This document shows, piece by piece, positions 6,449-23,523 of a DNA stretch of 64,000 nt. The notes under the pieces were generated by a model. It worked only from the letters and a program-made list of their open reading frames with translations. It searched no databases and was not told where the DNA came from. Positions within the stretch are counted from its first letter, which is position 1. The number at the start of each line of letters is the position of its first letter. Position numbers and translations under genes: made by a program. The stretch comes from Alistipes sp. Lineage in GTDB: Bacteria > Bacteroidota > Bacteroidia > Bacteroidales > Rikenellaceae. The stretch is from assembly GCA_017631275.1 (NCBI GenBank), contig JAGBTQ010000012.1, forward strand, positions 48,458 through 112,457. Reading direction: 5' to 3'.

Positions 6449-6492
6449 AAAACAACGGTCGGGCATCATATTGAGTGCCCGACCGTTGTTTT
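6449..6492 (+). terminator. Rho-independent terminator after the PAS gene
   Basis: A perfect 17-bp stem (AAAACAACGGTCGGGCA pairing with the complementary arm at 6476-6492) has a 10-nt loop and runs into further T residues. It closes the + strand run that began before the window. Confidence 0.9.
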
Positions 6493-6500
6493 GTTGTTTT

Positions 6501-6813
6501 ATAGGGTAGATGCGACGAATGGGATAAATGGGATAAATGGGATAGATAAGATAGATGGGAGCGCTGAATTAGGGAGATTAGGGAATTTAAGGAGATTAAG
6601 GAAATTAAGGAAAGGCTATCACTAAACTCCTTAAATTCATTAAATTCACTAAACGCCTTAATCTACCACCTCAATCAGCGCGCAATTTCTTGTCAGAAGG
6701 GTGCCGAGTGCTACACTCGGCAAAAATGGCGACGATGGGTAGTACTAAGCGTACGTCCCATTGTCGCCATTTTTTGTTAGGGGCCGCAATCGACCCATTA
6801 TCACAAGAAATTA
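6501..6813 (-). repeat. Composite intergenic repeat, copy 1 (inverted partner at 23235-23523)
   Basis: Read on the minus strand, the unit begins at the stop codon of the C1 peptidase gene (TAATTTCTTGTGATAA), contains hairpins, reaches a second CTTGT/ACAAG end at 6684-6693, then continues through GATTGAGGTGGTAGATTAAGG, TTAAGG-type words and ATGGGATAAATGGGATA words. The copy at 23235-23523 has the same order and near-identical sequence outside the hairpins but lies in the other orientation. No ORF lies in it. It is not an insertion sequence that I recognise. Confidence 0.85.
6684..6813 (-). terminator. Terminator hairpins bounded by an 11-bp-type inverted repeat, copy 1
   Basis: AATTTCTTGT (6684-6693) and ACAAGAAATTA (6803-6813) face each other around 110 bp. 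Inside are a perfect small hairpin (TGCCGAGTG / CACTCGGCA, near 6702-6724) and a long stem AAAAATGGCGACGATGGG / CCCATTGTCGCCATTTTT whose loop includes GTACTAAGCGTAC. On the minus strand this follows directly on the peptidase stop codon and would terminate its transcript; the long stem is nearly symmetrical and could work both ways. Confidence 0.75.
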
Positions 6814-8031
6814 CAAGCCAAGCTTAGCGCGAATCTCCGCAGGAATCGCATCCTTGTGAACGATGATGTTCATAGTCTTGTAACGAACGAATGCCTTTGA
6901 AGCATACCAGATACCCTTGTATGTACCAGCCTCGCCCCATGAGTTCTTAACCATGTAGTACTCAGTACCCTTCTGGTCCTTAGCGATACCGTAGATAAGC
7001 ATGCCGTGGTCGTCGGTTGTCTCGCGGTTGTCGTAGCCAAGCTGACGCTCCTCCTGTGATACCCAGCGCTGCTCAACAGCCATAGGAGCGCTCTTGCGCT
7101 GTGACTCAGTCATCTTAAGCCACTTAGCCATATCAGAGCCATCGAGCTCTGCTGCAGCCTTCTCCATGTCAGGAAGGATTGCAGTACCCTCGCGTGTGAA
7201 GCCGTCCTCGCTAACGTCGCTACCCCAAGCTACAGTGTAGCCATTCATGATAGCGTTGTCGAACACCTCCATAAGCTCGTCGATAGGGAGGTTGTAAGAG
7301 TGAGCCCAACGCCAGTTGTCAGGAATCTCGAGTGCGAATGAAGTGTAGAATGGGTGGTGAGTGTAAGATGTCAAAGATACGTAGTCGCTTGCGTTCAAGC
7401 CCAATGACTCGTAGAATGACTTTGGAGTGTACTCCACACCCTCGTAAGTGAACTTCTCAGGACGTACGCCGAGGTAGATGTCGTGAATAGACTCGATAGC
7501 CTTCTTCCACAACAACTCGCCCTCAGGGTTTGCCTGGAAGCTACGAAGCTTGCTTGTAGCAATAGCCTCAACAACAGCGTCGCTAACAACAGATAGCTCG
7601 TTGTGGTTGCTAAGCTCCATGCCATACATTACACCTGGACGCATCTCTGCCTCAGGAACAAGACCGAAAGCCTCCATACCGTAGATTACATCGTAGAATG
7701 AGCCACCCTGAGCGAACGATACATCGCCGTGTGTGCGTACTGCCTTCTCAGCGCGATCGAGGTAGGTGTTGTGCACGATAAACATCTCAGAGAAGTCGTA
7801 CTCGCCCTTACCCATACGCAAAAGCTCTGACTCGATGAAAGCCAATGATGAGTAGCACCAGCAGGTACCTGCTCTGTTCTGGTTCTTGATGCTTGTAATA
7901 GGGTTCTCCTTTACTACAGTAAACTGGATACCCTCAGACTGCTCACCCTTCTTAGGCTTAGCCTCAGCACCGTTAGCCATAGCACCAGTCACAAACATAA
8001 GACCGAGTGCCAATGCAAAAAATTTCTTCAT
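6811..8031 (-). CDS. Secreted C1 family cysteine peptidase (bleomycin hydrolase/PepC-like)
   Basis: The 406-residue product has a signal peptide (MKKFFALALGLMFVTGAMA). The papain-type catalytic residues are visible: Cys57 in QNRAGTCWCYSS, His342 in DDHGMLIYGI, and Asn363 in VKNSWGE. The overall arrangement is that of the C1B aminopeptidase C/bleomycin hydrolase group, but exported. Export suggests a role in periplasmic or extracellular peptide breakdown. It lies 31 bp downstream of topA as the last gene of the long minus-strand run, and its stop codon is the first triplet of a repeat element. Confidence 0.9.
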   Translation of the reverse strand: MKKFFALALGLMFVTGAMANGAEAKPKKGEQSEGIQFTVVKENPITSIKNQNRAGTCWCYSSLAFIESELLRMGKGEYDFSEMFIVHNTYLDRAEKAVRTHGDVSFAQGGSFYDVIYGMEAFGLVPEAEMRPGVMYGMELSNHNELSVVSDAVVEAIATSKLRSFQANPEGELLWKKAIESIHDIYLGVRPEKFTYEGVEYTPKSFYESLGLNASDYVSLTSYTHHPFYTSFALEIPDNWRWAHSYNLPIDELMEVFDNAIMNGYTVAWGSDVSEDGFTREGTAILPDMEKAAAELDGSDMAKWLKMTESQRKSAPMAVEQRWVSQEERQLGYDNRETTDDHGMLIYGIAKDQKGTEYYMVKNSWGEAGTYKGIWYASKAFVRYKTMNIIVHKDAIPAEIRAKLGL

Positions 8032-8062
8032 AAGTTGTTAGTTTTAGTGAATAATATATGTG

Positions 8063-10360
8063 TTATTTCTTAGCCTTAGCAATGATACGCTGGCAGTCAA
8101 CATATCCGAGTGTCTCCACCTTTGTGCCACGTGGCAGGCGGTAGTTCTTGCCCTGGAACGAGATATATGGGCCATAGATACCACTCTTGATGACCATCTC
8201 GCTATCCTCCGCAAAGGTCTTGATAGGCTCGGCTGCTGCGCGCTGCTTCTCGCTGTTCTCTCTCAAAATCTCTTCGGCACGCTCACGGCTGATAGTGTAA
8301 GGATCATCGCTCTTTGCCAACGATGCGAAGGTCTTGCCGTGGCGCACATAGGGGCCAAACTTACCCACGCCCACCATCAAGCTCTCACCGTCCAACTCGC
8401 CAAGGTTACGTGGCAGGGCAAATAGCTCGAGAGCCTCCTCAAGAGTAATTGACTCGATGAGCTGACCCTTCTTGAGCGATGCAAACTGACCCTTCTCGCC
8501 ATTCTCGCCCTCAAGCTCCACCATAGGACCATAGCGGCCGATACGTGCCTTCACCATCTGACCTGTCTTGGGGTCAATACCGAGCACACGTGTCTGCTGC
8601 GAGCGGTCGCTCTGCGTGCCTACTGCTGCGTCAACGAGTCTGTGGAATGGGTCGTAGAAGTCGTTAATCATATTGTACCATGCGATGTCGCCCTCAGCAA
8701 CACGGTCGAACTCCTTCTCCACATTTGCTGTGAAGTTGTAGTCCATGATTGTTGCAAACTGCGACTCGAGGTAGTCGTTAACAACCATACCTATGTCGGT
8801 AGGTGCCAAGCGGCTCTTCTCCTTGCCATAGCTCTCGGTTGTTATCTTCGACGTGAGCTTACCATTCGATAGTGTTATGTGCTCCACCTGACGCTTCTGA
8901 CCGTCACGGTTCTGCTTCTCAACATAGCCGCGATTGATAATCGTGGTGATTGTTGGCGCATAGGTTGATGGACGGCCGATGCCAAGCTCCTCAAGGCGCT
9001 TAACGAGTGCCGCCTCGTTGTAGCGTGAAGGGGCCTGAGTGTAGCGCTCCGAAGCGGTGATTGTTGTTGCAATAACCTCGCTGCCGAGCTCCATCTTTGG
9101 AAGGATGCCACCCTCGTCCTGCTGCTGATCCTCATCTACCGACTCAGAATATAGGCGCATGAAGCCATCGAAGCGCACAACCTCGCCTGTTGCCACAAAC
9201 TGCTCCGAGCGGCGGCTCAGGTCGATAACTATCTGTGTGCGGTCGAGCTCTGCGGGCACCATCTGCGATGCTACGGTGCGCTTCCATATAAGCTCGTAGA
9301 GGCGCTTCTCGGCAGCTGTACCCTCAATCTCGTGACGCTCGATATACGAAGGACGGATAGCCTCGTGAGCCTCCTGCGCACCCTTCGACTTGGTCTTGAA
9401 GTTGTGAGGATAAGAGTACTTAGCACCAAACAATCGAGTAATCTCGTTTTTGCACTGCGTGATAGCCATCTGCGAGAGGTTCACAGAGTCGGTACGCATA
9501 TATGTGATAAGACCCTGCTCGTAGAGTCGCTGTGCCACGCTCATTGTCTGTGCCACGCTCATGCCGAGCTTACGGCCCGCCTCCTGCTGAAGTGTAGAGG
9601 TGGTGAATGGTGGCGCAGCATATCTCTGCACAGGCTTCTCCTCGCACTTAGCCACGGTAAACTTCTCGCCTATGCACTCCTCGAGGAAGGCGTAAGCATC
9701 GTCACGCTTCTCGAATGCTTGCGACAAGGTTGCCTTGAAGAGAGTCTTCTGTGGGTCGTTAGCGGCATAGAACTGAGCCACAACACGGTAGCTTGCCACA
9801 GGCTGGAAGCCGATAATCTCTCTCTCGCGCTCAACGATAAGGCGCACGGCAACACTCTGCACACGGCCTGCCGAGAGTGCTGGACGCACCTTCTTCCACA
9901 ACACGGGCGAGAGCTCGAAGCCCACCAAGCGATCCAACACACGGCGTGCCTGCTGAGCATTCACCAAGTTCATGTCGATGGTACGCGGGTTCTCGATAGC
10001 GCTGAGGATAGCACGCTGCGTAATCTCGTGAAAGACAATACGCTTAGTGTTCTCGATAGGTAGGCCTAGGACCTTCGCAAGGTGCCAAGCAATAGCCTCT
10101 CCCTCGCGGTCCTCATCGGATGCCAGCCACACGGTCTTTGCCGCACGTGCCAATCGCGATAGTTCGTCCACAACCTTTCGCTTATCCTCGGGAATCTCGT
10201 ATAGTGGTTCGAAGTTGTTCTCAAGCTCAATACCGAGTCCCTTTTTAGCCAAGTCGCGAATATGACCAAAGCTCGACTTTACCATAAACTCCTTACCGAG
10301 GAATTTCTCGATGGTCTTAGCCTTGGCTGGAGACTCTACAATAACCAAATTTTCTTGCAT
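8063..10360 (-). CDS. topA: DNA topoisomerase I (type IA)
   Basis: TopA relaxes negative supercoils by a transient 5'-phosphotyrosine break. The 765-residue product has the Toprim domain at the start (LVIVESPAKAKTIEKFLG, about 5-22; DEDREGEAIAWHL), and the active-site Tyr287 in TYMRTDSVNLS. The C-terminus (about 590-765) contains repeated GKFGPYVRHG / GIYGPYISFQGKNYRLPRG units of the zinc-free Toprim C-terminal repeat type instead of Cys zinc fingers, as is usual for this phylum. It is 78 bp downstream of the DUF4270 gene, with a hairpin between them. Confidence 0.97.
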   Translation of the reverse strand: MQENLVIVESPAKAKTIEKFLGKEFMVKSSFGHIRDLAKKGLGIELENNFEPLYEIPEDKRKVVDELSRLARAAKTVWLASDEDREGEAIAWHLAKVLGLPIENTKRIVFHEITQRAILSAIENPRTIDMNLVNAQQARRVLDRLVGFELSPVLWKKVRPALSAGRVQSVAVRLIVEREREIIGFQPVASYRVVAQFYAANDPQKTLFKATLSQAFEKRDDAYAFLEECIGEKFTVAKCEEKPVQRYAAPPFTTSTLQQEAGRKLGMSVAQTMSVAQRLYEQGLITYMRTDSVNLSQMAITQCKNEITRLFGAKYSYPHNFKTKSKGAQEAHEAIRPSYIERHEIEGTAAEKRLYELIWKRTVASQMVPAELDRTQIVIDLSRRSEQFVATGEVVRFDGFMRLYSESVDEDQQQDEGGILPKMELGSEVIATTITASERYTQAPSRYNEAALVKRLEELGIGRPSTYAPTITTIINRGYVEKQNRDGQKRQVEHITLSNGKLTSKITTESYGKEKSRLAPTDIGMVVNDYLESQFATIMDYNFTANVEKEFDRVAEGDIAWYNMINDFYDPFHRLVDAAVGTQSDRSQQTRVLGIDPKTGQMVKARIGRYGPMVELEGENGEKGQFASLKKGQLIESITLEEALELFALPRNLGELDGESLMVGVGKFGPYVRHGKTFASLAKSDDPYTISRERAEEILRENSEKQRAAAEPIKTFAEDSEMVIKSGIYGPYISFQGKNYRLPRGTKVETLGYVDCQRIIAKAKK

Positions 10361-10384
10361 CGCAAAATTTATCTTTAACAGCGA

Positions 10385-10409
10385 AACCTAAGTATTTGCA
10401 ACTTAGGTT
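10385..10409 (-). other. Hairpin between DUF4270 gene and topA
   Basis: AACCTAAG and CTTAGGTT form a perfect 8-bp stem with a 9-nt loop in the 78-bp gap. There is no T run after it on either strand, so it is more likely an mRNA processing or attenuating hairpin than a full terminator. Confidence 0.4.
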
Positions 10410-10438
10410 CACTATAGTATCATTCTATTATTAACTGC

Positions 10439-12079
10439 TTAATATACAATCGTGTACACCAGCTCTAAGGTCATCGGTGCCATCTCAGCGGTATGTTTAA
10501 CAGCGTCGCCACCATATATCATCTGGCGTTGAAATCCGTATAGCGCATCTGCCGTAGGGCCAACAAACATACGTCGACTTATCTTAAGCATCTTATCTGT
10601 CTTGAACTTCTCAACATCAACAACGCCATTCTCGTCTGACTCCGAGATAACGTTCGATATTAGTTGCTGCATGAAGTTCGAGATATCCATCGTGTAGCAA
10701 CCCAACGAGCGATTGAGATAACCGTCGTAAGGTATCACAAAGCTCGACGACTCCTTAGTATAAAGGTAGTCGGAGATGGCAATAATGTCGTTGGTGTAGC
10801 CATCCTCGTAGCCACCATAACGTGAGTATAGTCCCATGCGCTCCATCGAGCCGTCCATAATCTTGCCAAGGGCTATTGGGTCGGCAAAGTTATAGTCGTA
10901 GCCCGAGCCCTCGAGGTAGATGTTTAGGTGAGCCTGGTTTACCGACACCTTAACACCCTTGCGACCCTTGGCAATATCTGCCAACGACTGCAAGAACTCG
11001 TCGGTGAACTCCACCTCGGTAACGATACCTGTCATCGCATCGACCTTGCCTACAAACACCTCGCGATGCTCCTGTATAGCAGCCATATCGTCGGCATTAA
11101 ACTCGTGCTCGACATGCGACACAGAGACATTACCCGCCTTCACATCATACTCCGAAGGGTTGATGTAGAAGTTGTAGGACATAATCACGGTATCCTTGAT
11201 AATCGAAGGATCCTCCTTATAGCGGCTACGCGCATAGAGCACCAGTGCCGAGTTCTCAACATCTGTCGAGAACATTGCACCCTGGTCATCTGCATCAAGC
11301 GCATCGAGTGGTGCGATATATACGCCTCTAATCTGCTCTACGAACTTCTTCTCGTTGCCCTGCTCATAAATCTCGGCAGTGTCACGCGCATAGCCCTCGT
11401 CATCGAGCTGTGTGGTGAACATCAGGCGGCGAACATACTCCATGGTAGCCTCGGTCTCCTCAAGCGTAACGCTCTCGAAGTGAGGATTTTCCATATTGCC
11501 TACATACACACCCTTCTCCTGGTTAGGATACTTAAATGTGAAGATAGGCTCGGCGCTAACATAGTGCTTAGGGTCGAACTGAGCATAGAAGACCGTGTCC
11601 TTAGAGTCGGTAAGATACGAATTTGAGGTAATCTCATAGACACCAAATCTACGGCACTTGGTAGTATCGCCATGATAGCTGGTTACATACAACGCCAAGG
11701 TCATCGAGTCGAAGATTGGTCGGTAGCCCCAGCCATACTCCTCGTCGAGCTTCGAGCCGAACAACACCTGCGACATAAATCCTGCACGGCGTGCACCAAA
11801 CTCAGCACTCTGCTCCTGGCCGAAATATACATCGTCGAGGTTCGAGCTCTTTATCGAGTCGCTCTGGTAGAGATATGTCTTCGACATTGTGACGCTTCGC
11901 TTCTCGCCCATATCCTCCATCACGCCGTCACGATATACTCTGCGGCGGAGCTCCATGTTCTGGTTTGTAGGCACATACTCAGCACCAAGATCGTAATCAA
12001 CCTCGGTTGTACAGCCCACCATAACGAGCGCCACAATGAAGAGCATCAATGCCTTCGACCACAAATTTCTATAACTCAT
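10439..12079 (-). CDS. DUF4270 lipoprotein
   Basis: From ATG 12079 the product has about 546 residues and starts with a lipoprotein signal (MSYRNLWSKALMLFIVALVMVGC). I chose this start because longer in-frame starts run back into the upstream glycosyltransferase gene and hide the signal. The body (YDLGAEYVPTNQNMELRR, VYFGQEQSAEFGARRAGFMSQVLFG, SQVLF then long beta-rich stretches, VYIAPLDALD) matches DUF4270, a Bacteroidetes-specific surface or periplasmic family of unknown function that typically follows a GT5 protein, as here. The two genes overlap by 11 bp. Confidence 0.85.
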   Translation of the reverse strand: MSYRNLWSKALMLFIVALVMVGCTTEVDYDLGAEYVPTNQNMELRRRVYRDGVMEDMGEKRSVTMSKTYLYQSDSIKSSNLDDVYFGQEQSAEFGARRAGFMSQVLFGSKLDEEYGWGYRPIFDSMTLALYVTSYHGDTTKCRRFGVYEITSNSYLTDSKDTVFYAQFDPKHYVSAEPIFTFKYPNQEKGVYVGNMENPHFESVTLEETEATMEYVRRLMFTTQLDDEGYARDTAEIYEQGNEKKFVEQIRGVYIAPLDALDADDQGAMFSTDVENSALVLYARSRYKEDPSIIKDTVIMSYNFYINPSEYDVKAGNVSVSHVEHEFNADDMAAIQEHREVFVGKVDAMTGIVTEVEFTDEFLQSLADIAKGRKGVKVSVNQAHLNIYLEGSGYDYNFADPIALGKIMDGSMERMGLYSRYGGYEDGYTNDIIAISDYLYTKESSSFVIPYDGYLNRSLGCYTMDISNFMQQLISNVISESDENGVVDVEKFKTDKMLKISRRMFVGPTADALYGFQRQMIYGGDAVKHTAEMAPMTLELVYTIVY

Positions 12080-12875
12080 CGTAGAACTTCTTATAGTTGT
12101 CGAATACCTCCTTAGCATCACCCTCAGAGTACTCGAGAATCTTTTTGCCTGCCTGACGGGCATACTCCACCAACTCCTGGTTAGCATTAGCTGATGTCAC
12201 AACAACGCCGTCGGCATACTCTATAACGAAGCGATATAGGTTTTCGTATGATGGCTCGCCCAAAATTGCCATTGAGCTATCCATGATACCCTCGCCCTCG
12301 AGCTTCTGCTTGAAGTCCTCAGCAAGGCAACCCTCAAACTTATCGTCGCCGAGCGATAGGACAATCTTCACATCGCGGAACAATGGATCGTCGTAGAATA
12401 CCTTCTTAAGATACATTGGAGCTATTGCCGAGAACCAGCCGTGGCAGTGCACGATGGTTGGTGCCCAGCGCAACTTCTTAACGGTCTCGAGCATGCCTCG
12501 AGCGAAGAATATCGCACGATCATCATTGTCAGCAAAAGGCTTGCCCTCCTCGTCGGTGAGCACAGCACGACGTGCGAAATAGTCGTCGTTGTCGATAAAG
12601 TAAATCTGGATACGTGCCGAAGGAATAGAGGCCACCTTGATGATAAGCTGGTGGTCGTTGTCGTTGATAATGAGGTTCATACCCGACAGGCGAATAACCT
12701 CGTGCAGCTGGTTTCTGCGCTCGTTGATGCAGCCAAACCTTGGCATGAACGTGCGCACCTCGGCACCACGCTCCTGCATCTGGCGTGCCATCTCAAGACT
12801 TAGCTTCGACAGCTCGTTCTCAGGCAAATATGGAGATATCTCCTGACAAACGTAAAGTATTTTATTTGTTGCCAT
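12069..12875 (-). CDS. Glycogen/starch synthase-like protein, GT5 N-terminal domain only
   Basis: The 268-residue product matches only the first Rossmann domain of bacterial glycogen synthase: KILYVCQEISPYLPENELSKL corresponds to the usual VxSEVxPxxKTGGLxDV region, and WAPTIVHCHGWFSAIAPMYLK to the conserved HDWxT region. The second Rossmann domain with the donor-binding site is absent, and the KTGG-like motif is not preserved. This short form is normal in Bacteroidales beside DUF4270. It may have another role than classical glycogen synthesis; activity cannot be assumed. Confidence 0.8.
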   Translation of the reverse strand: MATNKILYVCQEISPYLPENELSKLSLEMARQMQERGAEVRTFMPRFGCINERRNQLHEVIRLSGMNLIINDNDHQLIIKVASIPSARIQIYFIDNDDYFARRAVLTDEEGKPFADNDDRAIFFARGMLETVKKLRWAPTIVHCHGWFSAIAPMYLKKVFYDDPLFRDVKIVLSLGDDKFEGCLAEDFKQKLEGEGIMDSSMAILGEPSYENLYRFVIEYADGVVVTSANANQELVEYARQAGKKILEYSEGDAKEVFDNYKKFYDEL

Positions 12876-12908
12876 AACGCTCTAAAGTTTATGTTGGCAA
12901 AATATCTA

Positions 12909-13958
12909 CTAAAGAATCAACATCGCATCGCCGTAGGTACCAAAGCGGTAGCCCTCGTCGCGAGCAATTTTGTATGCGTCCATCACCATGTTATAACCGC
13001 CAAATGCTGCCACCATCATAAGCTGTGTTGAGTATGGAAGCTGGAAGTTAGTAACCATAGCATCTGCCGACGTAAACTGATAAGGGTGGAAGATAAACTT
13101 GTTTGTCCAGCCCTCCATAGGCTTAATCATGCCTCCCACTGATACTGCAGTCTCCATAGCGCGCATTGTTGTTGTGCCAATTGCCACAATCTTTCGTCCA
13201 TCACGCTTGGCAGCGTTAATCTGCTCGGCAGTCTCGTTGTTAATGAAGAACTGCTCCGAGTCCATCTTATGCTTCGACAAATCCTCCACATCAACTGTGC
13301 GGAAGTTGCCAAGGCCTACGTGGAGTGTTAGGAATGCGCTATCTATACCCTTGATCTCCATGCGCTTAAGCAGGTGCTTCGAGAAGTGAAGACCCGCTGT
13401 TGGCGCTGCCACAGCACCTTCATTCTTAGCATATATTGTCTGATACCACTCCTCGTCCTCTGGCTCAACCTTCTCACGCACCCAGCGAGGTAGTGGAGTC
13501 TCACCCATGGCATACAACGCCTCCTTGAACTCCTCATACGAGCCGTCGTACAAGAAGCGGAGCGTACGTCCACGCGATGTAGTGTTGTCAATAACCTCAG
13601 CACCCATCAAGTCGTCGTTGCCAAAGTATAGCTTGTTGCCTATACGAATTTTACGTGCTGGATCTACCAACACGTCCCATAGGCGAAGCTCGCTATTTAG
13701 CTCACGAAGCAAGAATATCTCGATGTCGGCACCCGTCTTCTCCTTACAACCCTGAAGACGTGCAGGGAATACCTTTGTGTCGTTGAACACAAACATATCC
13801 TTCTCGTCGAAATACTCGATAATATCTTTAAATGTGCGGTGCTCAATCTCGCCTGTCGAACGGTGCAACACCATCAGACGAGCATCATCACGGTTTACCG
13901 TAGGATATTTTGCAATCATATCCTCGGAAAACTCATAGCCATACTGTGATAACTTCAT
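12909..13958 (-). CDS. queA: S-adenosylmethionine:tRNA ribosyltransferase-isomerase
   Basis: QueA transfers the ribose part of SAM to preQ1 in tRNA, forming epoxyqueuosine. The 349-residue product has the family landmarks [43 protein letters not shown] (about 190), [17 protein letters not shown], and [10 protein letters not shown]. It sits 33 bp upstream of the GT5 gene and 51 bp after truB. A queD homolog lies at 23.7 kb, so at least two queuosine-pathway genes are in this window. Confidence 0.97.
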
Positions 13959-14009
13959 TATTTTATCTTAAAAAAGCGTGTAACAATCAAATATTATACG
14001 CAAAAGTCG

Positions 14010-14720
14010 CTATTTTGTTTCACATTCGCGCAACTTTTCCATAAAATCGTCGAGCGTATGCGACTTTTCAACGGTGTAACCACCACTGCGGGTACGTCGC
14101 AACGAGCTAAGATAGGCACCGCTCTCAAGCTTCTCGCCAATCTCAAATGCCAACGAACGAATATAGGTACCCTTCGAGCACTCCACCCTAATCTTTATGC
14201 GTGGCAGGTCATACTCCAAGAGCTCCATAGAGTAGATGTTGATAAGCGCCTTTTTGAGCTCAACCTCCTCGCCTGCACGTGCAAACTCGTAGGCACGCAC
14301 ACCCTGCACCTTCTTTGCTGAGTAGAGTGGCGGTAGCTGCTCACGCTCGCCACACAACGCTTTAAGAGCCTCCTCTACCTTCTCGCGCGTGATATGCTCC
14401 GTAGGATAGGTCTGGTCCACTTCATGCTCCATGTCGCCACTTGGTGTTGTTGCGCCAAGCTGAAGCTCTGCCACATACTCCTTCTGCTCTGCCTGCAAAG
14501 CCTCCACCTGCTTTGTGGCACGACCTATGCACACAAGCAAAATACCCGTAGCCAACGGATCAAGCGTGCCCGCATGGCCAATCTTAATCTTTGGATAGCC
14601 ACACTTGCGCAACTGAAACTTCAGCTTGCGCACCACATCTGCCGATGTCCACTCATAGGGTTTATCAATAACGGCGACATATCCTTCAGGAAAGTCAACC
14701 TCTCGTAGTGAAAATTCCAT
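14010..14720 (-). CDS. truB: tRNA pseudouridine(55) synthase
   Basis: TruB makes pseudouridine 55 in the T-loop of tRNAs. From ATG 14720 the product is 236 residues; the catalytic Asp54 lies in KIGHAGTLDPLATGILLVCIG, and the downstream PPxYSAKKVQGVRAYEFAR motif is complete. I prefer this start because it lies just after the uppP stop and the longer in-frame extension overlaps uppP. The C-terminal PUA-like part is short, as in many Bacteroidetes. Confidence 0.96.
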   Translation of the reverse strand: MEFSLREVDFPEGYVAVIDKPYEWTSADVVRKLKFQLRKCGYPKIKIGHAGTLDPLATGILLVCIGRATKQVEALQAEQKEYVAELQLGATTPSGDMEHEVDQTYPTEHITREKVEEALKALCGEREQLPPLYSAKKVQGVRAYEFARAGEEVELKKALINIYSMELLEYDLPRIKIRVECSKGTYIRSLAFEIGEKLESGAYLSSLRRTRSGGYTVEKSHTLDDFMEKLRECETK

Positions 14721-14721
14721 A

Positions 14722-15516: not shown

Positions 15517-15536
15517 AGTTTATAGTTCAGTTATGT

Positions 15537-15773: not shown

Positions 15774-15774
15774 A

Positions 15775-16665
15775 TTAGTATAGATGTATTTTATTTGTCT
15801 TCATATTAACATAGTTGTTGACAGCCAGCGCACTAAACACCAGCGTGATAATCACGCCGAGTAGCACCAAGCCACCAACAATCACAATCACTGCCATCTG
15901 GTCAAGGAGCTCCACCTGGGCAGATATCATTCTGCTTATAGCATAGCTCAACCCCCACATCATTGCTCCTGCCACAACACCTGAGAGCGCTCCCTGCCAT
16001 AGTGCACTACGAAGGAATGGGCGCATGATATACCACTTTGTGGCACCCACAAGCTTCATGGTGTTGATCAAATATCGCTTAGCATATATCGCCAAACGTA
16101 TGGTGTTGTTGAGTAGCAGTAACGATATTATGAGCAACACGCCGAGGAACACCAACAGGGCAAGAATAATTGTCGTTAGGCGCTCATGCATCTGATCTAC
16201 AACCTCGATAGGTGGCACAGCAACATATACAACACCCTCGATAGTGCTAATATAACCCACAAACTCACGCACCGACTCCTCATCAACCGACTCCTTGGTA
16301 AGCGTTAGCTCGAAGCTATCACGCAGAGGGTTGTCATCGAGTATCTCGCGTATATCGAGCTCAAACTGACGACGAAACTCCTCGTCGCCCAATTTATCCT
16401 CTTTCGACATATAATCTACCGACAACACCTCATCGCGCCCTTTTATCTGCTTAAGTATAGCGCGCTTAGCCTCCTTGTCGAGCTCATCGGTAATCTCCAC
16501 CGACACAACCACCCTCTCGCGCAACGACTCAGCTGCCGTAATAGCCGAGAGCGTGACATAGCTCACAGCACCCAATATAAAGAGCACCAGGGCTATGCTT
16601 ATGGTAGATATCACATAGGATCTGCGCACCTTGCGTCGCATTCTCTTATCGCTTGTTGCACTCAT
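15775..16665 (-). CDS. ftsX: Cell-division permease-like protein FtsX
   Basis: The 296-residue product has the FtsX layout: cytoplasmic N-terminus, TM1 (about 15-40), a periplasmic domain (about 45-165; VVVSVEITDELDKEAKRAIL ... KEDKLGDEEF), then three TM helices. FtsX works with the ATPase FtsE to activate peptidoglycan hydrolases at division. No ftsE is nearby, which is common in this phylum where the gene is elsewhere. It begins 2 bp after the large YfhO-like gene. Confidence 0.92.
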   Translation of the reverse strand: MSATSDKRMRRKVRRSYVISTISIALVLFILGAVSYVTLSAITAAESLRERVVVSVEITDELDKEAKRAILKQIKGRDEVLSVDYMSKEDKLGDEEFRRQFELDIREILDDNPLRDSFELTLTKESVDEESVREFVGYISTIEGVVYVAVPPIEVVDQMHERLTTIILALLVFLGVLLIISLLLLNNTIRLAIYAKRYLINTMKLVGATKWYIMRPFLRSALWQGALSGVVAGAMMWGLSYAISRMISAQVELLDQMAVIVIVGGLVLLGVIITLVFSALAVNNYVNMKTNKIHLY

Positions 16666-16667
16666 AA

Positions 16668-19223
16668 CTATCTCTTCTTGTTTTTAACCACACCTCTTAC
16701 CGCCAACACAAACGCCACAACCAAGCCAAGAAGTATCAGCCACGAACATACGCCCGTGATTGCTGTTGCCATGCCCCACTGTGGAGCCTTAAACTTCCAC
16801 TCTACAACATGCTTACCCTCAGGTAGTTTCATGCCTCGTAGAATGTAGTCGGCAACAAAGTACTCCGCCTCAACACCATCGACATACGCCTTCCAGCCAT
16901 CGGCAAAGTATATCTCCGAGAATACCGCCAACGCCTCTGCTGGTGCCTCGTACTCATATTTTAGGTAGTTTGGTGCATACTTCGTAAGTGTTATGTTGCC
17001 CGTAGCGTCGTAGTTCTCGGCAAACTCACCAGCCTTCTCGTTCACCACAGCCTTCACTCCGAGGTTTACGTATGCCAACGCCTCAAGCTCCTTCTCGGCT
17101 GTAGGCTGCTCATAGACACCCTCAACAAACCATGCAGCACCCAACGGCTCGCAACCAAGGGCCTCGTCAAGGCCATAGACCTTCTCACCACTGATGATAT
17201 ATCGTGTGTTGAGCATTGCCAACACCGCGCCATTCTGCTCAGCGATATATCGCTCCATAACCTCCTGGTAGCGACCCAGCTTAGCACCATGATAGCCATC
17301 TACCGAACGGTGGAAGTATGCCGCCGTTGCCGAGCCATAGTTATCCAAGTCAAAGACGCGGTATCCAAGATCTCCATCTTGCAAAATCTCGCGGTTTGCC
17401 TCCGTAGGACGAATTGCCGTAGGACTTGAACTATGCCACTTATCCTCACCGAGATAGCGCTTACCAACACCCACCAGGTCGAGCGTAACAACAAGACCCA
17501 CAAAAACCACCACGCCACACATCGCCCAATAACGATACTTTGCAGACTCTTTCTCACGCACCCAGGCAAATGCCACAACGCCGCCCGCTACGAGCACCAC
17601 GTTGAGCAACGAGCGCCACATATCGCCAAGCATAGCATCACGACGCGCCATTAATGCCGCCTCTTTGAGCTGCTCCACCCACCATGTATTGCCAAGCTCG
17701 CGGTTGATATCTGCCAAGCCATAGTCGGCAAGTGCAAACATAGCAACCATAAGCACAACCACAACACCGAGGGCAACGCCCACATATTTTGCACTCTGCT
17801 TTGCGCTTAGCTTGCTCTGCCACAACTGCCACAATGCCACCGCGGCGAGTAGTGGTATAGCCCACTCCAGCACCACAAGTGCCATAGATACCGTTCTAAA
17901 GTTCTTATATCCCGGCAATATGTCATACATTAGCTCGTAGAGGCGCATGGCATTGCCACCCCACGCCAAGAGCAACATAAAGAGCATTGATGCCACTATC
18001 CACCACCTATCACGGTCGGAGGCAAGCATCAAACCGAGCAGGGCAAGCAGTATTGCCGCCGCACCAAGATATGTAGGGCCCGCCGTAAATGGCTGACTAC
18101 CCCAATAGTTCGAGGCATACTTTACTATATTTGCATTCTCTCTATCGGCAATGGCATATAACAGCGACAGCAACTCCTCGTCGCCAGCCTGCAACGCCTC
18201 CTCAACCTCCTGTTTTGTGACATCTGGGAACTGCTCACGACAAATCTCCACAACCTGATTTAGTGCTCCGTCGAGCAGAGCCTCCTGCACACCACGACTC
18301 TGCAATATCGCTATTGCCTCATCGCTATAGTCGCCCGACCATGCACCCATGTAGCTTGGCACAAGCATGTTGAAGCTCTCAAGCTTACCATAGCTCCACG
18401 CCGTGTTGTAGGCAATCTTTGCATTGCGTGCATCCTCCTCCGACACCGACTCGGTCACACCTCGTGTAGTATATTTCTGATGCTTGAAGGTGTACCATAG
18501 TGGCGAGAAGTTTGAGCCTACAGCCAGCAGCGCCGCAACAGCCAGCAGCGCCGTAGTGCGACCAAACGCCTTGAGCGCCTTCTCGCGATAGGCATACCAC
18601 ATCTCGCTAAGCCATAGCGCAACGCACACCAAAAGGAAGTAGTAGGTTATCTGTGGGTGGTTAGCTCCGAGCTCCAACGAGCCAAAGAGCGCTGCAAGTA
18701 GAGCTCCAAGCCACGCATTCTTACGTAGCGCATACCACACCGAGGCAACGAGTGGTGGCGCATATACCAGCGCCCACATCTTAGTGATGTGTCCCGCGTC
18801 GATAATAAGGAAGAAGTAGGTTGACAAGCCATACGCCAAGCCAGCGATTATGCCTATCCATGGATTTACACCCATGAGCACCACCGCCACCATCATCAAC
18901 ACCATAGCAAAGAGGGTCATGTTCATTGGGCCATCGATGACCTTAACTATGCTACCCACACCCTGCTTAACATCCTGCGTAGGATACTCCACGTCGATGA
19001 GGTATGCAGGCATTCCCGAGAACATGTTTCCTGTCCACTGAGGATCTTCGCCCGTAGCCTCACGATGCTCCTTTATATCTTGCGACATGCCGGCATACTG
19101 CGCTATATCGCCCTGACCCAGCGACTTGCCCTCGAATTGTGGCGCATAAAACACAAGACCCACCACCACAAAAATGGCGATGCCCACAACCCATGGCAAA
19201 ATATGTTTAACCCACTCTTTCAT
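16668..19223 (-). CDS. YfhO-like large polytopic membrane protein
   Basis: The 851-residue protein has a first TM (HILPWVVGIAIFVVVGLVFYA), an extracytoplasmic loop with GDIAQYAGMSQDIKEHREATG, about a dozen further hydrophobic helices, and a soluble C-terminal part (about 590-815) before a last TM. The DxxQ(Y) loop and the segment GNMFSGMPAYLIDVEYP fit the YfhO family, which has the GT-C glycosyltransferase architecture and probably acts on lipid-linked sugars. It is the first gene of the ten-gene minus-strand run and has its own promoter box. The substrate is unknown. Confidence 0.82.
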   Translation of the reverse strand: MKEWVKHILPWVVGIAIFVVVGLVFYAPQFEGKSLGQGDIAQYAGMSQDIKEHREATGEDPQWTGNMFSGMPAYLIDVEYPTQDVKQGVGSIVKVIDGPMNMTLFAMVLMMVAVVLMGVNPWIGIIAGLAYGLSTYFFLIIDAGHITKMWALVYAPPLVASVWYALRKNAWLGALLAALFGSLELGANHPQITYYFLLVCVALWLSEMWYAYREKALKAFGRTTALLAVAALLAVGSNFSPLWYTFKHQKYTTRGVTESVSEEDARNAKIAYNTAWSYGKLESFNMLVPSYMGAWSGDYSDEAIAILQSRGVQEALLDGALNQVVEICREQFPDVTKQEVEEALQAGDEELLSLLYAIADRENANIVKYASNYWGSQPFTAGPTYLGAAAILLALLGLMLASDRDRWWIVASMLFMLLLAWGGNAMRLYELMYDILPGYKNFRTVSMALVVLEWAIPLLAAVALWQLWQSKLSAKQSAKYVGVALGVVVVLMVAMFALADYGLADINRELGNTWWVEQLKEAALMARRDAMLGDMWRSLLNVVLVAGGVVAFAWVREKESAKYRYWAMCGVVVFVGLVVTLDLVGVGKRYLGEDKWHSSSPTAIRPTEANREILQDGDLGYRVFDLDNYGSATAAYFHRSVDGYHGAKLGRYQEVMERYIAEQNGAVLAMLNTRYIISGEKVYGLDEALGCEPLGAAWFVEGVYEQPTAEKELEALAYVNLGVKAVVNEKAGEFAENYDATGNITLTKYAPNYLKYEYEAPAEALAVFSEIYFADGWKAYVDGVEAEYFVADYILRGMKLPEGKHVVEWKFKAPQWGMATAITGVCSWLILLGLVVAFVLAVRGVVKNKKR

Positions 19224-19244
19224 GCTATAAATATATTAATGCGC

Positions 19245-19252
19245 CAAAGGTA
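19245..19252 (-). promoter_or_regulatory. -7 promoter box of the ten-gene minus-strand operon
   Basis: TACCTTTG on the minus strand fits the Bacteroidales -7 consensus TAnnTTTG, 21 bp before the ATG of the YfhO-like gene. All nine downstream genes are spaced by 78 bp or less, so this may be the main promoter of the run. Confidence 0.65.
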
Positions 19253-19260
19253 CGAAAAAA

Positions 19261-19365
19261 AAGTGAAAAGTGAAAGGGGGAGAGGCGAAAAGTGTGGTGC
19301 GCTCGGCGGTCATAAGGTTAAAGATGAAAAGGGAAAGGTGAAAAGTAAGGTGTGCTTCGCACAGG
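19261..19365 (+). repeat. Purine-rich GTGAAAAG repeat, locus 1
   Basis: Reiterated AAGTGAAAAGTGAAAG-type words are followed by GTGGTGCGCTCGGCG and, after a second purine block, AAGGTGTGCTTCGCAC, a short palindrome. The same two-module arrangement recurs inverted at 23531-23662. No ORF is evident. The rest of the gap up to 19509 is AT-rich promoter DNA. Confidence 0.8.
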
Positions 19366-19483
19366 TTTTTTATATTGACACAAATGTTCAAATTTATTTT
19401 TGATTATTATCATCTTACCACATAATTTATACACCTCGAAACTAATATTTTTGTCTATATATCAATCATTCACAAAATTTCGT

Positions 19484-19491
19484 TATCTTTG
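19484..19491 (+). promoter_or_regulatory. -7 promoter box of the polyprenyl synthetase gene
   Basis: TATCTTTG fits the TAnnTTTG consensus 18 bp before the ATG, in an AT-rich upstream stretch. No convincing -33 TTTG at the usual distance was seen. Confidence 0.7.
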
Positions 19492-19509
19492 CCTAATTAA
19501 ACTTAATAT

Positions 19510-20526
19510 ATGGCAACAATAGACGCTATACGCAAACCCATTCTTGCAGACCTCGACGCCTTTGACGAGTTCGTGAAGGAGAATGTCACCGCTGAGGGCG
19601 ACCTCATGCGCGAGATGCTCACATATGCCCTCAGCTCACGTGGCAAGGGCGTGCGCCCCATGCTCACCATGCTCTGCGCCTCACTCATGAGCGCAACCGA
19701 GAATAGCAACGCCGAGGAGGCTGGCAAGGAGCGCCACTCGTCGAAGCGCACCTATCTTGCGGCAATGCTTGTCGAGATGATACACACCGCCTCGCTCATT
19801 CACGACGATGTGCTCGACTCGGCTGATGAGCGCCGTGGACGCGCCTCGGTGAATGCTAAGTGGCAGAGCAACATGGCTATTATTCTTGGCGACTTTATCC
19901 TTGCCCGCACAATGGCTCTCGGCATGGCGTCGGCGCAGTACGACATCATGTCGTATATCGGCACTGCCATGGCAACCCTCTGCGAGGGCGAGGTGTTGCA
20001 GAGCCAGCATGCCCGCAACCTAGATACATCGCGTGACGACTACTTTGCGATTATCTATCAGAAGACCGCCAGCCTTCTTGGTGTGAGCGCCGCCCTCGGA
20101 GCACTCTCTGTTGGTGCTTCACGCGAAGATGTCGATCGCATGCGCAAGTTTGGCGAGGCCATAGGTATCGCCTTCCAGATTCAGGACGACATCCTCGACT
20201 TCAACCGCCAGAACAACACGGGCAAGCCCGCCAACAACGACCTTCGTGAGCACAAGATAACACTTCCGCTTATCGAGGTCATGGAGCGCAAGACAGAGGA
20301 GGAGCGCAAGGAGATTTTGGAGCTTATCAAGCGTTGCGACAAAGATGAGAGTGCCGTTGATGCACTCCAAAAAATTGTCGATGAGGGCAATGGCTCAGCA
20401 CTCGCTGCCCAGACCATGCAGGCATATATTCAGCGTGCGCTGCACCTGCTCTCGAAGTATTCGGACACGCCCTACCGCACAGCACTTATGGAGCTATGTG
20501 CCTACATTGCCGAGCGCGATAGGTAA
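19510..20526 (+). CDS. Trans-type polyprenyl diphosphate synthase
   Basis: The enzyme condenses isopentenyl units onto an allylic diphosphate to make the quinone side chain or a similar prenyl chain. The 338-residue product has the first Asp-rich motif DDVLDSADERRGR (starting about residue 99) and the second DDILDF (about 226), with GKGVRPML near the N-terminus. Small residues upstream of the first motif (TASLIHDD) are those of long-chain synthases, so an octaprenyl or similar product is likely but not certain. Its own promoter box lies just upstream. Confidence 0.93.
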   Translation: MATIDAIRKPILADLDAFDEFVKENVTAEGDLMREMLTYALSSRGKGVRPMLTMLCASLMSATENSNAEEAGKERHSSKRTYLAAMLVEMIHTASLIHDDVLDSADERRGRASVNAKWQSNMAIILGDFILARTMALGMASAQYDIMSYIGTAMATLCEGEVLQSQHARNLDTSRDDYFAIIYQKTASLLGVSAALGALSVGASREDVDRMRKFGEAIGIAFQIQDDILDFNRQNNTGKPANNDLREHKITLPLIEVMERKTEEERKEILELIKRCDKDESAVDALQKIVDEGNGSALAAQTMQAYIQRALHLLSKYSDTPYRTALMELCAYIAERDR

Positions 20527-20567
20527 TATATTTATAACCAAGCAATTAACTTAAAACTATTTATAAA

Positions 20568-21857
20568 ATGAGTACTGCAAAGAAAAGCAATCTTTTGGCT
20601 ATCATCGTGATGATTCTTTTGTTCGGAATGATCTCGTTTGTAACCAACCTCGCATCGCCTATGGGTGATGTTCTCAAGAACCAGTTCCAGGTGGCAAATT
20701 GGATGGGGACACTTGGTGTATTTGCCAACTTTATCGCCTACGCTTGCATGGGTATCCCTGCGGGTAACCTTCTTCAGAAGCGTGGCTACAAATTTACCGC
20801 TTTGGCTGCCGTTGCCGTAGGTTTCACTGGAGTGGGCATCCAGACCCTTGCAGGTCTTATCGAGGGCAACACTGCCTTTGGCGTATACCTCCTCGGTGCA
20901 TTCATCGCAGGTTTCTCGATGTGTATGCTTAACATCGTTGTTAACCCTATGCTCAACAAGTTGGCAGGTGGTGGTAACCGCGGTAACCAGCTCCTTCAGG
21001 TTGGTGGCTCATTCAACTCGTTGATGGGTACTGCCGTAATCTTCCTCACTGGTGTCTTCGTGCCAAGCATTGCTGATGCTAAGATCGAGCAGGTATTCCC
21101 ACTCATGTTCATCGCCTTGGCTATCTTCGCGGTAGCATTTGTCGTTATCCTCTTTACCGATATTCCTGAGAGCAAGAGCGAGGCAAAGATCGAGGAGAAA
21201 AAGTCGAACATTGGCCCTATGTCATTCCGCCACTTTATGTTGGGCGCTATCGCCATTTTCATCTATGTAGGTGTTGAGGTAGGTATTCCTAACGTATTGC
21301 AGAAGTGGTTGCAGAATGGTGGCCTTAGCGTCGAGACAGGTGCCGAGGGTATCGCGGCTACTGTTGCTGCAACTTACTGGTTGCTAATGTTCTTCGGCCG
21401 TTTGTTGGGCGCCGCACTCGGTGCTAAGATCTCGGCAAAGAGCATGCTCACAGCAGTATCTGTCTTGGGTCTTGGCTTGGTGTTGGGCGCCATGTTCCTC
21501 AACCCTACAAATAGCGTTAACCTCCCAGTATTCATGGGTACTGAGGGCTTCGGCGTTGCTAACGTGCCAGTGAACGCTGCCTTGTTGGTGTTGTGCGGCT
21601 TGTGCACATCAGTAATGTGGGGTGGCATCTTCAACCTCGCCGTTGAGGGCCTCGGCAAGTACACCGAGAAGGCTTCAGGCATCTTCATGGCTCTTGTATG
21701 TGGTGGTGGTATCCTCCCATTGTTGCAGAACTTTGTTGTCGATCTATCGGGCAGCTACCTCACAAGCTACTGGGTGATTGTTGCTGGCTTGGCATACCTT
21801 CTCTTCTACGCCCTCGTAGGCTCGAAGAACGTAAACAAGGATATTCCTACAGAGTAA
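20568..21857 (+). CDS. FHS-family sugar permease (MFS, FucP/GluP-like)
   Basis: The 429-residue protein has about 12 hydrophobic segments and the features of fucose:H+ symporter-family carriers: a conserved N-terminus with FVTNLASPMGDVLK, YACMGIPAGNLLQKRGYKF (loop 2-3), and the MCMLNIVVNPMLNKL segment that corresponds to the family's N-P region. It probably imports a monosaccharide by proton symport; which one cannot be told. It is 41 bp after the synthase gene and is closed by a terminator. Confidence 0.88.
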   Translation: MSTAKKSNLLAIIVMILLFGMISFVTNLASPMGDVLKNQFQVANWMGTLGVFANFIAYACMGIPAGNLLQKRGYKFTALAAVAVGFTGVGIQTLAGLIEGNTAFGVYLLGAFIAGFSMCMLNIVVNPMLNKLAGGGNRGNQLLQVGGSFNSLMGTAVIFLTGVFVPSIADAKIEQVFPLMFIALAIFAVAFVVILFTDIPESKSEAKIEEKKSNIGPMSFRHFMLGAIAIFIYVGVEVGIPNVLQKWLQNGGLSVETGAEGIAATVAATYWLLMFFGRLLGAALGAKISAKSMLTAVSVLGLGLVLGAMFLNPTNSVNLPVFMGTEGFGVANVPVNAALLVLCGLCTSVMWGGIFNLAVEGLGKYTEKASGIFMALVCGGGILPLLQNFVVDLSGSYLTSYWVIVAGLAYLLFYALVGSKNVNKDIPTE

Positions 21858-21875
21858 CATAGCCAAACATAGCAC

Positions 21876-21918
21876 AAACAACTCCTCGGGTCGAGAACTC
21901 GGGGAGTTGTTTTTTTTG
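21876..21918 (+). terminator. Terminator after the sugar permease gene
   Basis: AAACAACTCC pairs with GGAGTTGTTT around a loop of about 17 nt that can pair further, followed by a run of T residues. Confidence 0.88.
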
Positions 21919-21970
21919 TTGTCACGCAAAAATATTTGCAAAAAGCGAGCCAACATAACGATAGTTTTTA

Positions 21971-22002
21971 TATCTTTGTAATTGAATGTAGCCATAGGCT
22001 AC
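21971..22002 (+). promoter_or_regulatory. kbl promoter box and 5'-leader hairpin
   Basis: TATCTTTG (21971-21978) fits the -7 consensus. About 10 bp downstream, close to the expected 5' end of the mRNA, GTAGCC-ATA-GGCTAC (21988-22002) forms a perfect hairpin. A 5'-terminal stem of this kind can protect an mRNA and agrees with the signs of high expression in kbl. The leader to the ATG is about 65 nt. Confidence 0.6.
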
Positions 22003-22049
22003 TCTTCAGCAGGACAATTATTCATTAACTTTCTAATACTTTTACGACA

Positions 22050-23237
22050 ATGTACGGAAAATTTCAGCAGCATTTGCAGAACGAGCTAGCCGAGATTAAG
22101 GCTGCCGGCTTGTACAAGACAGAGCGTATCATTGAGTCACCACAGCGTGCCGAGATCGACGTGGCTAACCGCCCAGTGTTGAACTTCTGCGCTAACAACT
22201 ACCTTGGTCTTTCTGACAACCCACGCCTCGTTGAGGCAGCGAAGAAGGCTTTGGACGAGCGTGGCTTCGGTATGTCATCAGTACGTTTCATCTGCGGCTG
22301 CCAGGACATTCACAAGCAGCTTGAGAAGGCTATTGCCGACTACTTTGGCACTGAGGATACTATCCTCTACGCTGCTTGTTTCGACGCTAATGGTGGTGTC
22401 TTCGAGCCATTGTTCACTGCCGAGGACGCTATCATCTCAGACGCTTTGAACCACGCATCAATCATCGACGGTGTACGTCTTTGCAAGGCTCAGCGCTACC
22501 GCTATGCTAATGCCGACATGGCAGAGTTGGAGGAGTGCTTGAAGCAGGCTCAGGCACAGCGCTTCCGCATCATCGTTACTGACGGTGTATTCTCTATGGA
22601 CGGTAACGCTGCACCACTCGACAAGATTTGCGAGTTGGCTGAGAAGTACGACGCTTTGGTAATGGTTGACGAGTGCCACTCAGCAGGTGTGTTGGGTAAG
22701 ACTGGTCGCGGTATCACTGAGCTCTACGATCTTCGTGGCAAGGTAGATATCCTCACAGGTACTCTCGGCAAGGCATTTGGTGGTGCAGTAGGTGGCTTCA
22801 CCACTGGTCGCAAGGAGATCATCGACATGCTTCGTCAGCGCTCACGTCCTTACCTCTTCTCTAACTCATTGCCACCAGCAGTTGTTGGCGCATCTATCGA
22901 GATGTTCAAGATGTTGGAGGAGAGCGACGCATTGCACGACAAGCTCGTAGCAAACGTTGAGCACTTCCGTTCAAAGATGGTTGCTGCAGGCTTCGACATC
23001 AAGCCTACAGTATCTGCTATCTGCGCTGTTATGCTCTACGACGCAAAGCTTTCACAGGACTTCGCAGCAGAGCTCCAGAAGGAGGGTGTATTCGTAACAG
23101 GTTTCTACTACCCTGTTGTTCCTAAGGGTCAGGCACGTATCCGTGTTCAGGTATCTGCAGGCCACACAACAGAGCAGCTCGACCGTTGCGTTGAGGCGTT
23201 TGTTAAGGTTGGTAAGCAGCTTGGCGTCTTGAAATAA
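22050..23237 (+). CDS. kbl: Glycine C-acetyltransferase (2-amino-3-ketobutyrate CoA ligase)
   Basis: This PLP enzyme of the alpha-oxoamine synthase family converts 2-amino-3-oxobutyrate and CoA to glycine and acetyl-CoA in threonine catabolism. The 395-residue product follows E. coli Kbl closely (NFCANNYLGLSDNPRLVEAA, EDAIISDALNHASIIDGVRL, DGVFSMDGNAAPLDKICELA, RQRSRPYLFSNSLPPAVVGA). The PLP Lys is K241 in GTLGKAFGGAVGG. Codon choice is skewed to GCT, GGT, CGT and TTG compared with neighbours, a sign of high expression. Threonine dehydrogenase is not adjacent. The TAA stop is the first triplet of a repeat element. Confidence 0.95.
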   Translation: MYGKFQQHLQNELAEIKAAGLYKTERIIESPQRAEIDVANRPVLNFCANNYLGLSDNPRLVEAAKKALDERGFGMSSVRFICGCQDIHKQLEKAIADYFGTEDTILYAACFDANGGVFEPLFTAEDAIISDALNHASIIDGVRLCKAQRYRYANADMAELEECLKQAQAQRFRIIVTDGVFSMDGNAAPLDKICELAEKYDALVMVDECHSAGVLGKTGRGITELYDLRGKVDILTGTLGKAFGGAVGGFTTGRKEIIDMLRQRSRPYLFSNSLPPAVVGASIEMFKMLEESDALHDKLVANVEHFRSKMVAAGFDIKPTVSAICAVMLYDAKLSQDFAAELQKEGVFVTGFYYPVVPKGQARIRVQVSAGHTTEQLDRCVEAFVKVGKQLGVLK

Positions 23238-23367
23238 TTTCTTGTGATAAGCCGCAATCTGCGGCACATGCTTAAAAAGCTGAGCACTCGAGGCTGTACT
23301 AAGTGTACTATCCTTGGGTGCTCGCTTTTTTGATGTACCACATCTCACGGCTTCTAACAAGAAATTA
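23235..23367 (+). terminator. Terminator hairpins bounded by an 11-bp inverted repeat, copy 2
   Basis: TAATTTCTTGT (23235-23245) and ACAAGAAATTA (23357-23367) are perfect inverted repeats. Between them are a small hairpin GCCGCA-ATC-TGCGGC and a long imperfect stem AAAAAGCTGAGCACTCGAGG / CCTTGGGTGCTCGCTTTTTT with the loop core GTACTAAGTGTAC. The T run gives a kbl terminator. The stems differ in sequence from copy 1 but the loop core is nearly the same (GTACTAAGCGTAC in copy 1). Confidence 0.75.
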
Positions 23368-23523
23368 GTGCGCTGATTGAGGTGGTAGATTAAGGTGTTT
23401 AGTGAATTTAATGAATTTAAGGAGTTTAGTGATAGCCTTTCCTTAATCTCCTTAAATTCCCTAATCTCCCTATTTCAGCGCTCCCATCTATCTCATCTAT
23501 CCCATTCGTCCCATCTATCCCAT
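23235..23523 (+). repeat. Composite intergenic repeat, copy 2 (inverted partner at 6501-6813)
   Basis: Starting at the kbl stop codon, this unit repeats the order seen in copy 1: TAATTTCTTGTGATAA, hairpins, ACAAGAAATTA, GATTGAGGTGGTAGATTAAGG, blocks of TTTAGTGAATTTAATGAATT and CTTAATCTCCTTAAATTCCC type, GCGCTCCCATCTATC and CCCATCTATCCCAT. The blocks outside the hairpins are nearly base-for-base the same as copy 1 in reverse complement. No protein is encoded. Confidence 0.85.

Follow-up and report, generated by a model that had tools for sequence, protein, structure and literature searches.

Structured repeat units anchored at stop codons in Alistipes: shared sites, mostly different units and probable renewal at a conserved arm

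This work describes a family of non-coding structured repeats in Alistipes sp., two inverted copies of which lie 17 kb apart in a 64,000-nucleotide stretch of contig JAGBTQ010000012.1 (assembly GCA_017631275.1, positions 48,458 to 112,457 of the forward strand; hereafter the window). Copy 1 follows a gene for a C1-like cysteine peptidase on the reverse strand (6811..8031, PF03051) and copy 2 follows kbl, encoding glycine C-acetyltransferase, on the forward strand (22050..23237, TIGR01822). Both copies, read in the sense of their carrier gene, open with TAATTTCTTGTGATAA, the TAA of which is the stop codon of the carrier. In copy 1 (stop at 6811..6813, reverse strand) the last two bases of this codon are the first two of the unit stem, and the kbl stop (23235..23237, forward strand) likewise overlaps the unit start. 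A structured unit of ~130 nt comes first, located at 6684..6812 on the reverse strand in copy 1 (type A, with a cloverleaf-like interior; covariance model score 117.6 bits) and at 23236..23366 on the forward strand in copy 2 (type B, rod-like; 123.4 bits). Both units are closed by a 10-bp stem with the same arms, AATTTCTTGT / ACAAGAAATT. The unit is followed by an imperfect second hairpin of TTAAGG-like words (6561..6683, reverse strand, with GCGCGCTGATTGAGG...TTCAGCGC in copy 1; 23368..23483, forward strand, in copy 2) and by a terminal tract of CCCAT/TATC words (6505..6560, reverse strand, and 23484..23523, forward strand).

The original prediction had placed an inverted pair here, and the checked sequence bears out both the positions and the opposite orientation of the copies. 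It had also called them nearly base-for-base identical outside their hairpins, which holds for the downstream parts save for length differences (149/156 identical, gapped columns, i.e., 27 bases plus end gaps, being uncounted) but not for the first ~130 nt, where the units agree at 88/123 positions, with the same arms and a different interior type. Copy 1 folded as DNA has z = -8.7 and copy 2 folded as RNA has z = -7.5; no shuffle equals either. A covariance model scan finds only these two units in the window.

The pair itself is not the unit of interest, as each copy is a member of a dispersed, non-coding, modular family. DNA searches of the window's own genome (G000, 87.5% complete) with the two copies gave 101 and 117 matches at E ≤ 10, overlapping and partial pieces included. 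A covariance model (R1), a single model spanning the two structural subtypes, was built from an alignment (A1) of 55 distinct units and gave 149 matches in G000 among the best 150 scored of 653 candidates. Since the unit list of each genome was made from its best 150 scored candidates, unit counts are lower bounds. Once 18 opposite-strand echoes are removed, a minimum of 131 units remains in G000, distributed over 106 arrays that hold between one and three ~130-nt units; 24 of the arrays are tandem. A match at E ≤ 1e-3 is present in 64 of the 101 genomes of the genus, G000 included. These findings support the idea of a repeat system that has many relatives, and the many copies found in this genome and its relatives contradict the counter-possibility that the family ends with these two. 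Four units of G000 lie at a contig end or within ~60 bases of it (C32:9-138, C2:15232-15357, C5:88524-88652 and C17:62-192); the repeat may thus break the assembly, and copy number may be underestimated.

Nearly every tested site is a stop-codon array in the sense of the gene, and in most of them the final two stop-codon bases take part in the outer stem. In G000, 97 of 105 arrays start at the end of a reading frame of at least 90 codons, in sense orientation and at offsets between -13 and +9, compared with 5/105 in a mirror control (other end, other strand). The offset is exactly -1 in 67/105 arrays, the last two stop-codon bases being unit bases 1-2, and in 8 further arrays the stop is the TGA within GTGATAAG. 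Small offsets often leave a unit prefix ahead of the unit (TAAT, TAATT, TAATTTG or TAATTTCTTG). At C3:9002, whose stop codon is TAG, a changed partner preserves the second base pair. Units from named GTDB records, chosen by exact arm pattern and with nine edge units skipped, are anchored in 69 of 73 cases, versus 2/63 in the mirror. The two window copies have opposite orientations because each array is tied to its own gene and these genes lie on opposite strands.

The stems of the unit covary. In A1, 97.7% of the cells are paired, compared with 91.4% after shuffling, and two-sided changes are found in 75 cells, as against 24.5 under shuffling and no more than 18 in slid controls. The arms are 8-11 bp long, and helix 1 (arms and inner stem) is paired in 97.0% of cells; arm position 6 is C-G in 29 units, G-C in 21 and unpaired in 5. 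Interiors are of type A, with two side hairpins (cloverleaf-like), or type B (a rod), and both types carry GTGATAAG/CTTCTRAC and nearly always a GTAC-loop-GTAC tip. Of 291 distinct units from all fetched loci, 263 fold better on the antisense strand, which has a mean advantage of 13 kcal/mol compared with 5 kcal/mol in single-base shuffles. Sense-strand mismatches at eight arm positions are A.C in 27 cases and G.T in 8. The corresponding counts in the central hairpin are 183 and 16, an excess that comes largely from two fixed A.C positions (128 cells under a finer typing). This predicted fold bias hints that the antisense strand could be the folding one, as RNA or as folded DNA. A box C/D-like K-turn formed by GTGATAA/CTGA was dropped as a candidate, as CTAA is common at that position.

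Many sites are common to G000 and a sister species, and the units found there are mostly different. This was observed by comparing G000 with genome G074 (~90% nucleotide identity across a syntenic 20 kb), in which 77 carrier genes were collected from stretches chosen by R1 matches, 6 of 83 arrays having been removed because they had no upstream frame. Sixty-five of these carriers are orthologs of genes in the set of 97 G000 carriers used for the comparison. A unit was considered shared when it had ≥ 93% identity and no unit at another locus was a closer match. By this strict rule 8 of the 65 loci share a unit, or 9 when C5_49708 is added, which was judged from the alignment; turnover may be overstated, because the close likeness of common-type units across loci can make true orthologs fall short of it. 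Among 23 typed pairs, the interior type is the same in 7 (shuffled mean 4.8) and the apical loop in 1 (shuffled mean 1.7). These pairs were drawn from 28 by leaving out both window loci and C5_49708, at which the interior types differ, as well as C11_32936 and C11_96798, at which they are alike. The downstream flank aligns over at least 450 bases at 22 of the 28 loci, though most units differ.

The kbl locus illustrates the same variability across the genus. In its 30 best kbl loci (G000 included) the C-terminus is conserved throughout, and 14 full units of various types, 4 partial units and 12 loci with none are seen by eye past the stop codon. In more distant members of the genus (L220-L225), a second start codon lies 6-18 bp after kbl, and no unit is visible by eye; the frame that starts there appears Lrp-like from its sequence.

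In the clearest differences between G000 and G074, an entire extra unit separates the stop codon from an older unit that both genomes have. At C1_11529, an older unit, shared at 98%, lies behind one new unit in G000 and behind a pair of new units in G074. The unit that is first in G000 comes second in G074 at both C11_59274 and C5_49708, and at C11_63275 the two genomes share the third unit, with no match for units 1-2. C5_49708 also indicates where the exchange took place: the locus-specific proximal arm AATTTGTCG is retained in both species, the new unit of G074 terminates in ACAACAAATT and the head of the displaced unit now reads ATTTCTCG, which places the exchange inside the conserved TGATAAG segment. 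Judged from these letters, it is as though a unit and the adjoining junction had been copied or moved together. With regard to a target-site duplication, as would be expected of a mobile element, TA flanks many units, but the junctions inside tandem arrays vary (TTA in 19, none in 15, TTTA in 13, and others). Within tandem pairs, the stop-side unit has the higher R1 score in 21 of 25.

Among the matches listed for the exact arm pattern in named records, all 80 loci are in records titled Alistipes sp. or Rikenellaceae bacterium; the former records come from gut samples of sheep, goat, cattle, buffalo, yak and deer, and the latter name no host in their titles. A scan of the order with strict filters matched 3 of 198 genomes, one being G000. 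In G242, from another family of the order, one unit was found in the 246 kb that were read (L348:1500-1629). It lies at a TAA stop that ends a 412-codon frame and has arms, TTAATATTGAT/ATCAATATTAA, that are quite unlike those described above but are perfectly paired. Carriage by phages or plasmids was rejected: no viral contig has the exact arm pattern, and neither a plasmid search with the copy 2 unit nor a phage search with the copy 1 unit gave a match.

Some further features neighbour the units. A second dispersed family trails many of them and consists of hairpins with short degenerate words (TTAAGG, GATAGGG and GGGTAACGCTTCGCTTGATGGG) in one arm and the complementary words in the other; its members (among them window 6561-6683 and 23368-23483) are highly variable in length among the arrays examined. 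A recurring block of ATAAAATAAACTCCGTGCGAAGCGCACC and then TTTTCACC-type words occupies window 23525-23650 and is also seen past other arrays, for example C11:27575 and C5:78878. An ordinary terminator-like hairpin (6447..6494, forward strand), outside the repeat family, separates copy 1 from the opposing gene. The protein facing copy 1 (window 6078-6419, 113 aa) has no NCBIfam or Pfam match, and on its side, beyond copy 1, the sister genome G074 has no alignable sequence.

On balance, we consider it fairly probable that these repeats form a non-coding, stop-anchored modular family that is renewed by recombination at the conserved arm. A unit would be gained through recombination within the arm segment (T)TGTGATAAG of the gene-adjacent unit, whether by ectopic homologous recombination, by a microhomology-driven process or by a recombinase yet to be found. 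The gene-proximal arm would remain, so that anchor and orientation stay fixed, and older units would be shifted downstream, followed by their decay and loss. Ordinary homologous or microhomology exchange suffices for the observed cases and is our default assumption. Our guess regarding function is that the units, in mRNA, may cap the 3' end with a stable structure from the stop codon on. A general role as intrinsic terminator is doubtful: none was called inside either window unit (with a simple pattern that may miss hairpins with internal loops), and a T4-T5 tract after the central hairpin is present in some unit types and absent in others.

Several observations weigh against this reading. Eight of the 105 arrays, 4 of which begin no more than 250 bases from a sequence end, have no anchoring frame. 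A divergent, weaker copy in G215 (L349), likewise outside the family of G000 but in the same order, also has no carrier; the closest long frame there points in the other direction. The agreement in interior type between G000 and G074 is slightly above that of the shuffles, and arm letters show no clear locus-specific conservation (13/23 versus a shuffled mean of 10.7). The units at C6_145512 (96%), C6_179207 (95%) and C8_7567 (93%) are alike in both genomes but equally close to other loci, and C21_1991 merely ties under the shared-unit rule. At C3_19053 and C21_37977 unit 1 is weakly shared and the extra unit of G074 lies downstream, and C8_7567 and C6_128959 can be explained by a second unit having been either gained or lost; a comparison of two genomes without an outgroup leaves gain versus loss unpolarised. 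Model bias could account for the better scores of stop-side units, from which R1 was mostly built. Finally, no mover enzyme was identified among the families searched in G000, at its 87.5% completeness. RAYT, with which REP and BIME elements are linked, reverse transcriptase, integron integrase and IS630-type transposase were all set aside as movers, being not found or below cut-off in that genome. Across the 101 genus genomes, Y1_Tnp (PF01797) is found in 1, which is not G000, and RVT_1 in 33, which include neither G000 nor G074. The integron integrase TIGR02249 is above its cut-off in 0/101, with tyrosine-recombinase matches below that cut-off in 101/101, and DDE_3 (IS630-type) is found in 0/101, other transposase families not having been searched.

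A bolder form of the proposal is a dedicated exchange system without genes, in which a recombinase captures small non-coding hairpin cassettes at the gene-proximal end of stop-fixed arrays, perhaps as folded antisense-strand DNA. We regard this as improbable. If it were true, the 3' ends of a large chromosomal gene set would undergo continuous rewriting at inherited positions, and the G242 and weak G215 copies would represent an older, low-copy form with other arms.

Among the alternatives, a cis-acting RNA element of the 3' untranslated region, selected at the stop codon for mRNA stability, release or transcript end and swapped by concerted evolution, is possible, though we would not expect it. 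The sense orientation and exact stop anchor, the pairing of stop-codon bases with a changed partner at the TAG stop of C3:9002, the covariation and the retention of a unit at orthologous genes would all be explained. Such an element sits poorly with the better antisense fold of 263/291 units and the excess of A.C over G.T mismatches in the sense-strand arms (27 versus 8), with the lack of a terminator call in the window units by the simple pattern, and with the absence of a unit, judged by eye, at 12 of the 30 kbl loci.

An unlikely explanation is a transposon resembling miniature inverted-repeat transposable elements (MITEs) of the ERIC/RUP kind, mobilised by a transposase in trans and inserting at the TA of TAA stops, with arrays as nested insertions. 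The terminal inverted repeats, which frequently carry TA at either end (TAATTT...AAATTA), the size of ~130 bp, the dispersal and the presence or absence of whole units agree with this, and the small-repeat table in the available text of PMC2229807 lists ERIC and RUP with terminal inverted repeats and terminal TA. Transposition alone, however, leaves the sense orientation, the stop anchor and the shared sites with differing units unexplained, and the changed arm head of the displaced unit at C5_49708 is unlike a simple insertion. Of the transposase families searched, DDE_3 was found in none of the 101 genomes and Y1_Tnp in a single one other than G000.

It is quite unlikely that the units are integron-like attC sites, i.e., recombination hairpins after a stop codon whose folded bottom strand is the DNA substrate of a tyrosine recombinase. 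By analogy, the post-stop position, the succession of arm stem, unpaired GAT/CTR, inner stem and variable terminal structure, the better antisense fold, the gain on the stop side and the exchange within the arm would fit, as would the sub-cut-off tyrosine-recombinase matches in all 101 genomes. The core motif of attC sites is RYYYAAC/GTTRRRY, which by eye is absent from the arms TAATTTSTTGTGATAAG / CTTCTRACAASAAATTA; moreover, TIGR02249 does not exceed its cut-off in any of the 101 genomes, there are no gene cassettes, and the units lie at ordinary chromosomal genes such as kbl.

An assembly artefact, in which short-read metagenome assembly shuffled the 130-bp repeats among loci, is very improbable. 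Contigs C2, C5, C17 and C32 do end inside a unit or ~60 bases from one, but the flank downstream of mostly different units aligns over at least 450 bases between G000 and G074 at 22/28 loci, and anchored repeats occur in many named records. Least credible of all is the switch suggested by the original prediction, in which the pair, inverted and similar over a long stretch (149/156 identical bases downstream of the units), flips the 17-kb interval, since G074 is collinear over window 6799-27052, including the unchanged queD/polA flank past kbl (its other flank being unaligned), G063 is collinear in pieces over 6810-23249 (with uninformative outer flanks), and similar copies lie on both strands genome-wide in orientations dictated by each gene.

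The reading of a stop-anchored family renewed at its arm bears on a wider question, that of how the small structured repeats common in bacteria choose their sites and why they persist. Here the site is set almost to the base, the orientation is fixed, and many sites are inherited while their content mostly is not, so that pairs of genomes allow gain, loss and exchange to be followed one unit at a time. If the units act in mRNA, this lineage rewrites the 3' ends of ~100 genes on the time scale of a species split; if an enzyme drives the exchange, this would be a new kind of cassette system.

No relevant Rfam 15 match was obtained, in line with the remark in the original prediction that no named repeat has this form: in the window only a tRNA reaches the gathering threshold, and loci L001, L008 and L014 give nothing relevant at E ≤ 1. 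We found no description of stop-anchored arrays with exchange, nor of repeats that keep stop-anchored sites while their units differ, in the open-licence literature, to which our survey was mostly confined, subscription literature lying largely outside it. Integron attC sites resemble the units as folded post-stop sites with an arm stem, an unpaired spacer, a variable tip and gain at one end. The Alistipes units differ by the lack of an integrase above cut-off and of cassettes, by another arm motif and by their chromosome-wide dispersal. REP and BIME elements are likewise high-copy extragenic palindromes, whereas the unit described here is 130 nt long and no Y1 transposase was found in G000; REP or BIME are mentioned in the available text of PMC8040213, PMC3049150 and PMC3733652. 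HMP2_4205, a palindromic candidate RNA of 132 bp from Bacteroidetes, is similar in size, phylum and palindromic nature and could be related, as far as its description in the available text of PMC8040213 allows comparison; it differs in that it is reported to lie near TPR genes and is itself predicted to be a terminator. The nearest of the known kinds are ERIC, RUP and YPAL on the one hand and BOX and SPRITE on the other. The enterobacterial ERIC (IRU, RU-1) and YPAL (RU-2) repeats, as presented in the available parts of PMC2229807 and PMC2759123, share a length of ~127-168 bp, inverted ends, TA at the termini of ERIC, a stable fold of the transcript and an intergenic location, at times fused to gene ends; a strict stop anchor, growth on the stop side or replacement of units is not described in those parts. 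According to the available text of PMC3049150, the BOX, RUP and SPRITE elements of pneumococcus are dispersed structured repeats as well, SPRITE being enriched near the 3' ends of convergent genes and BOX being modular with variable tandem inner parts. In BOX, however, the modules lie within one element, whereas the Alistipes units stack whole from the stop codon, each with its own closing stem.

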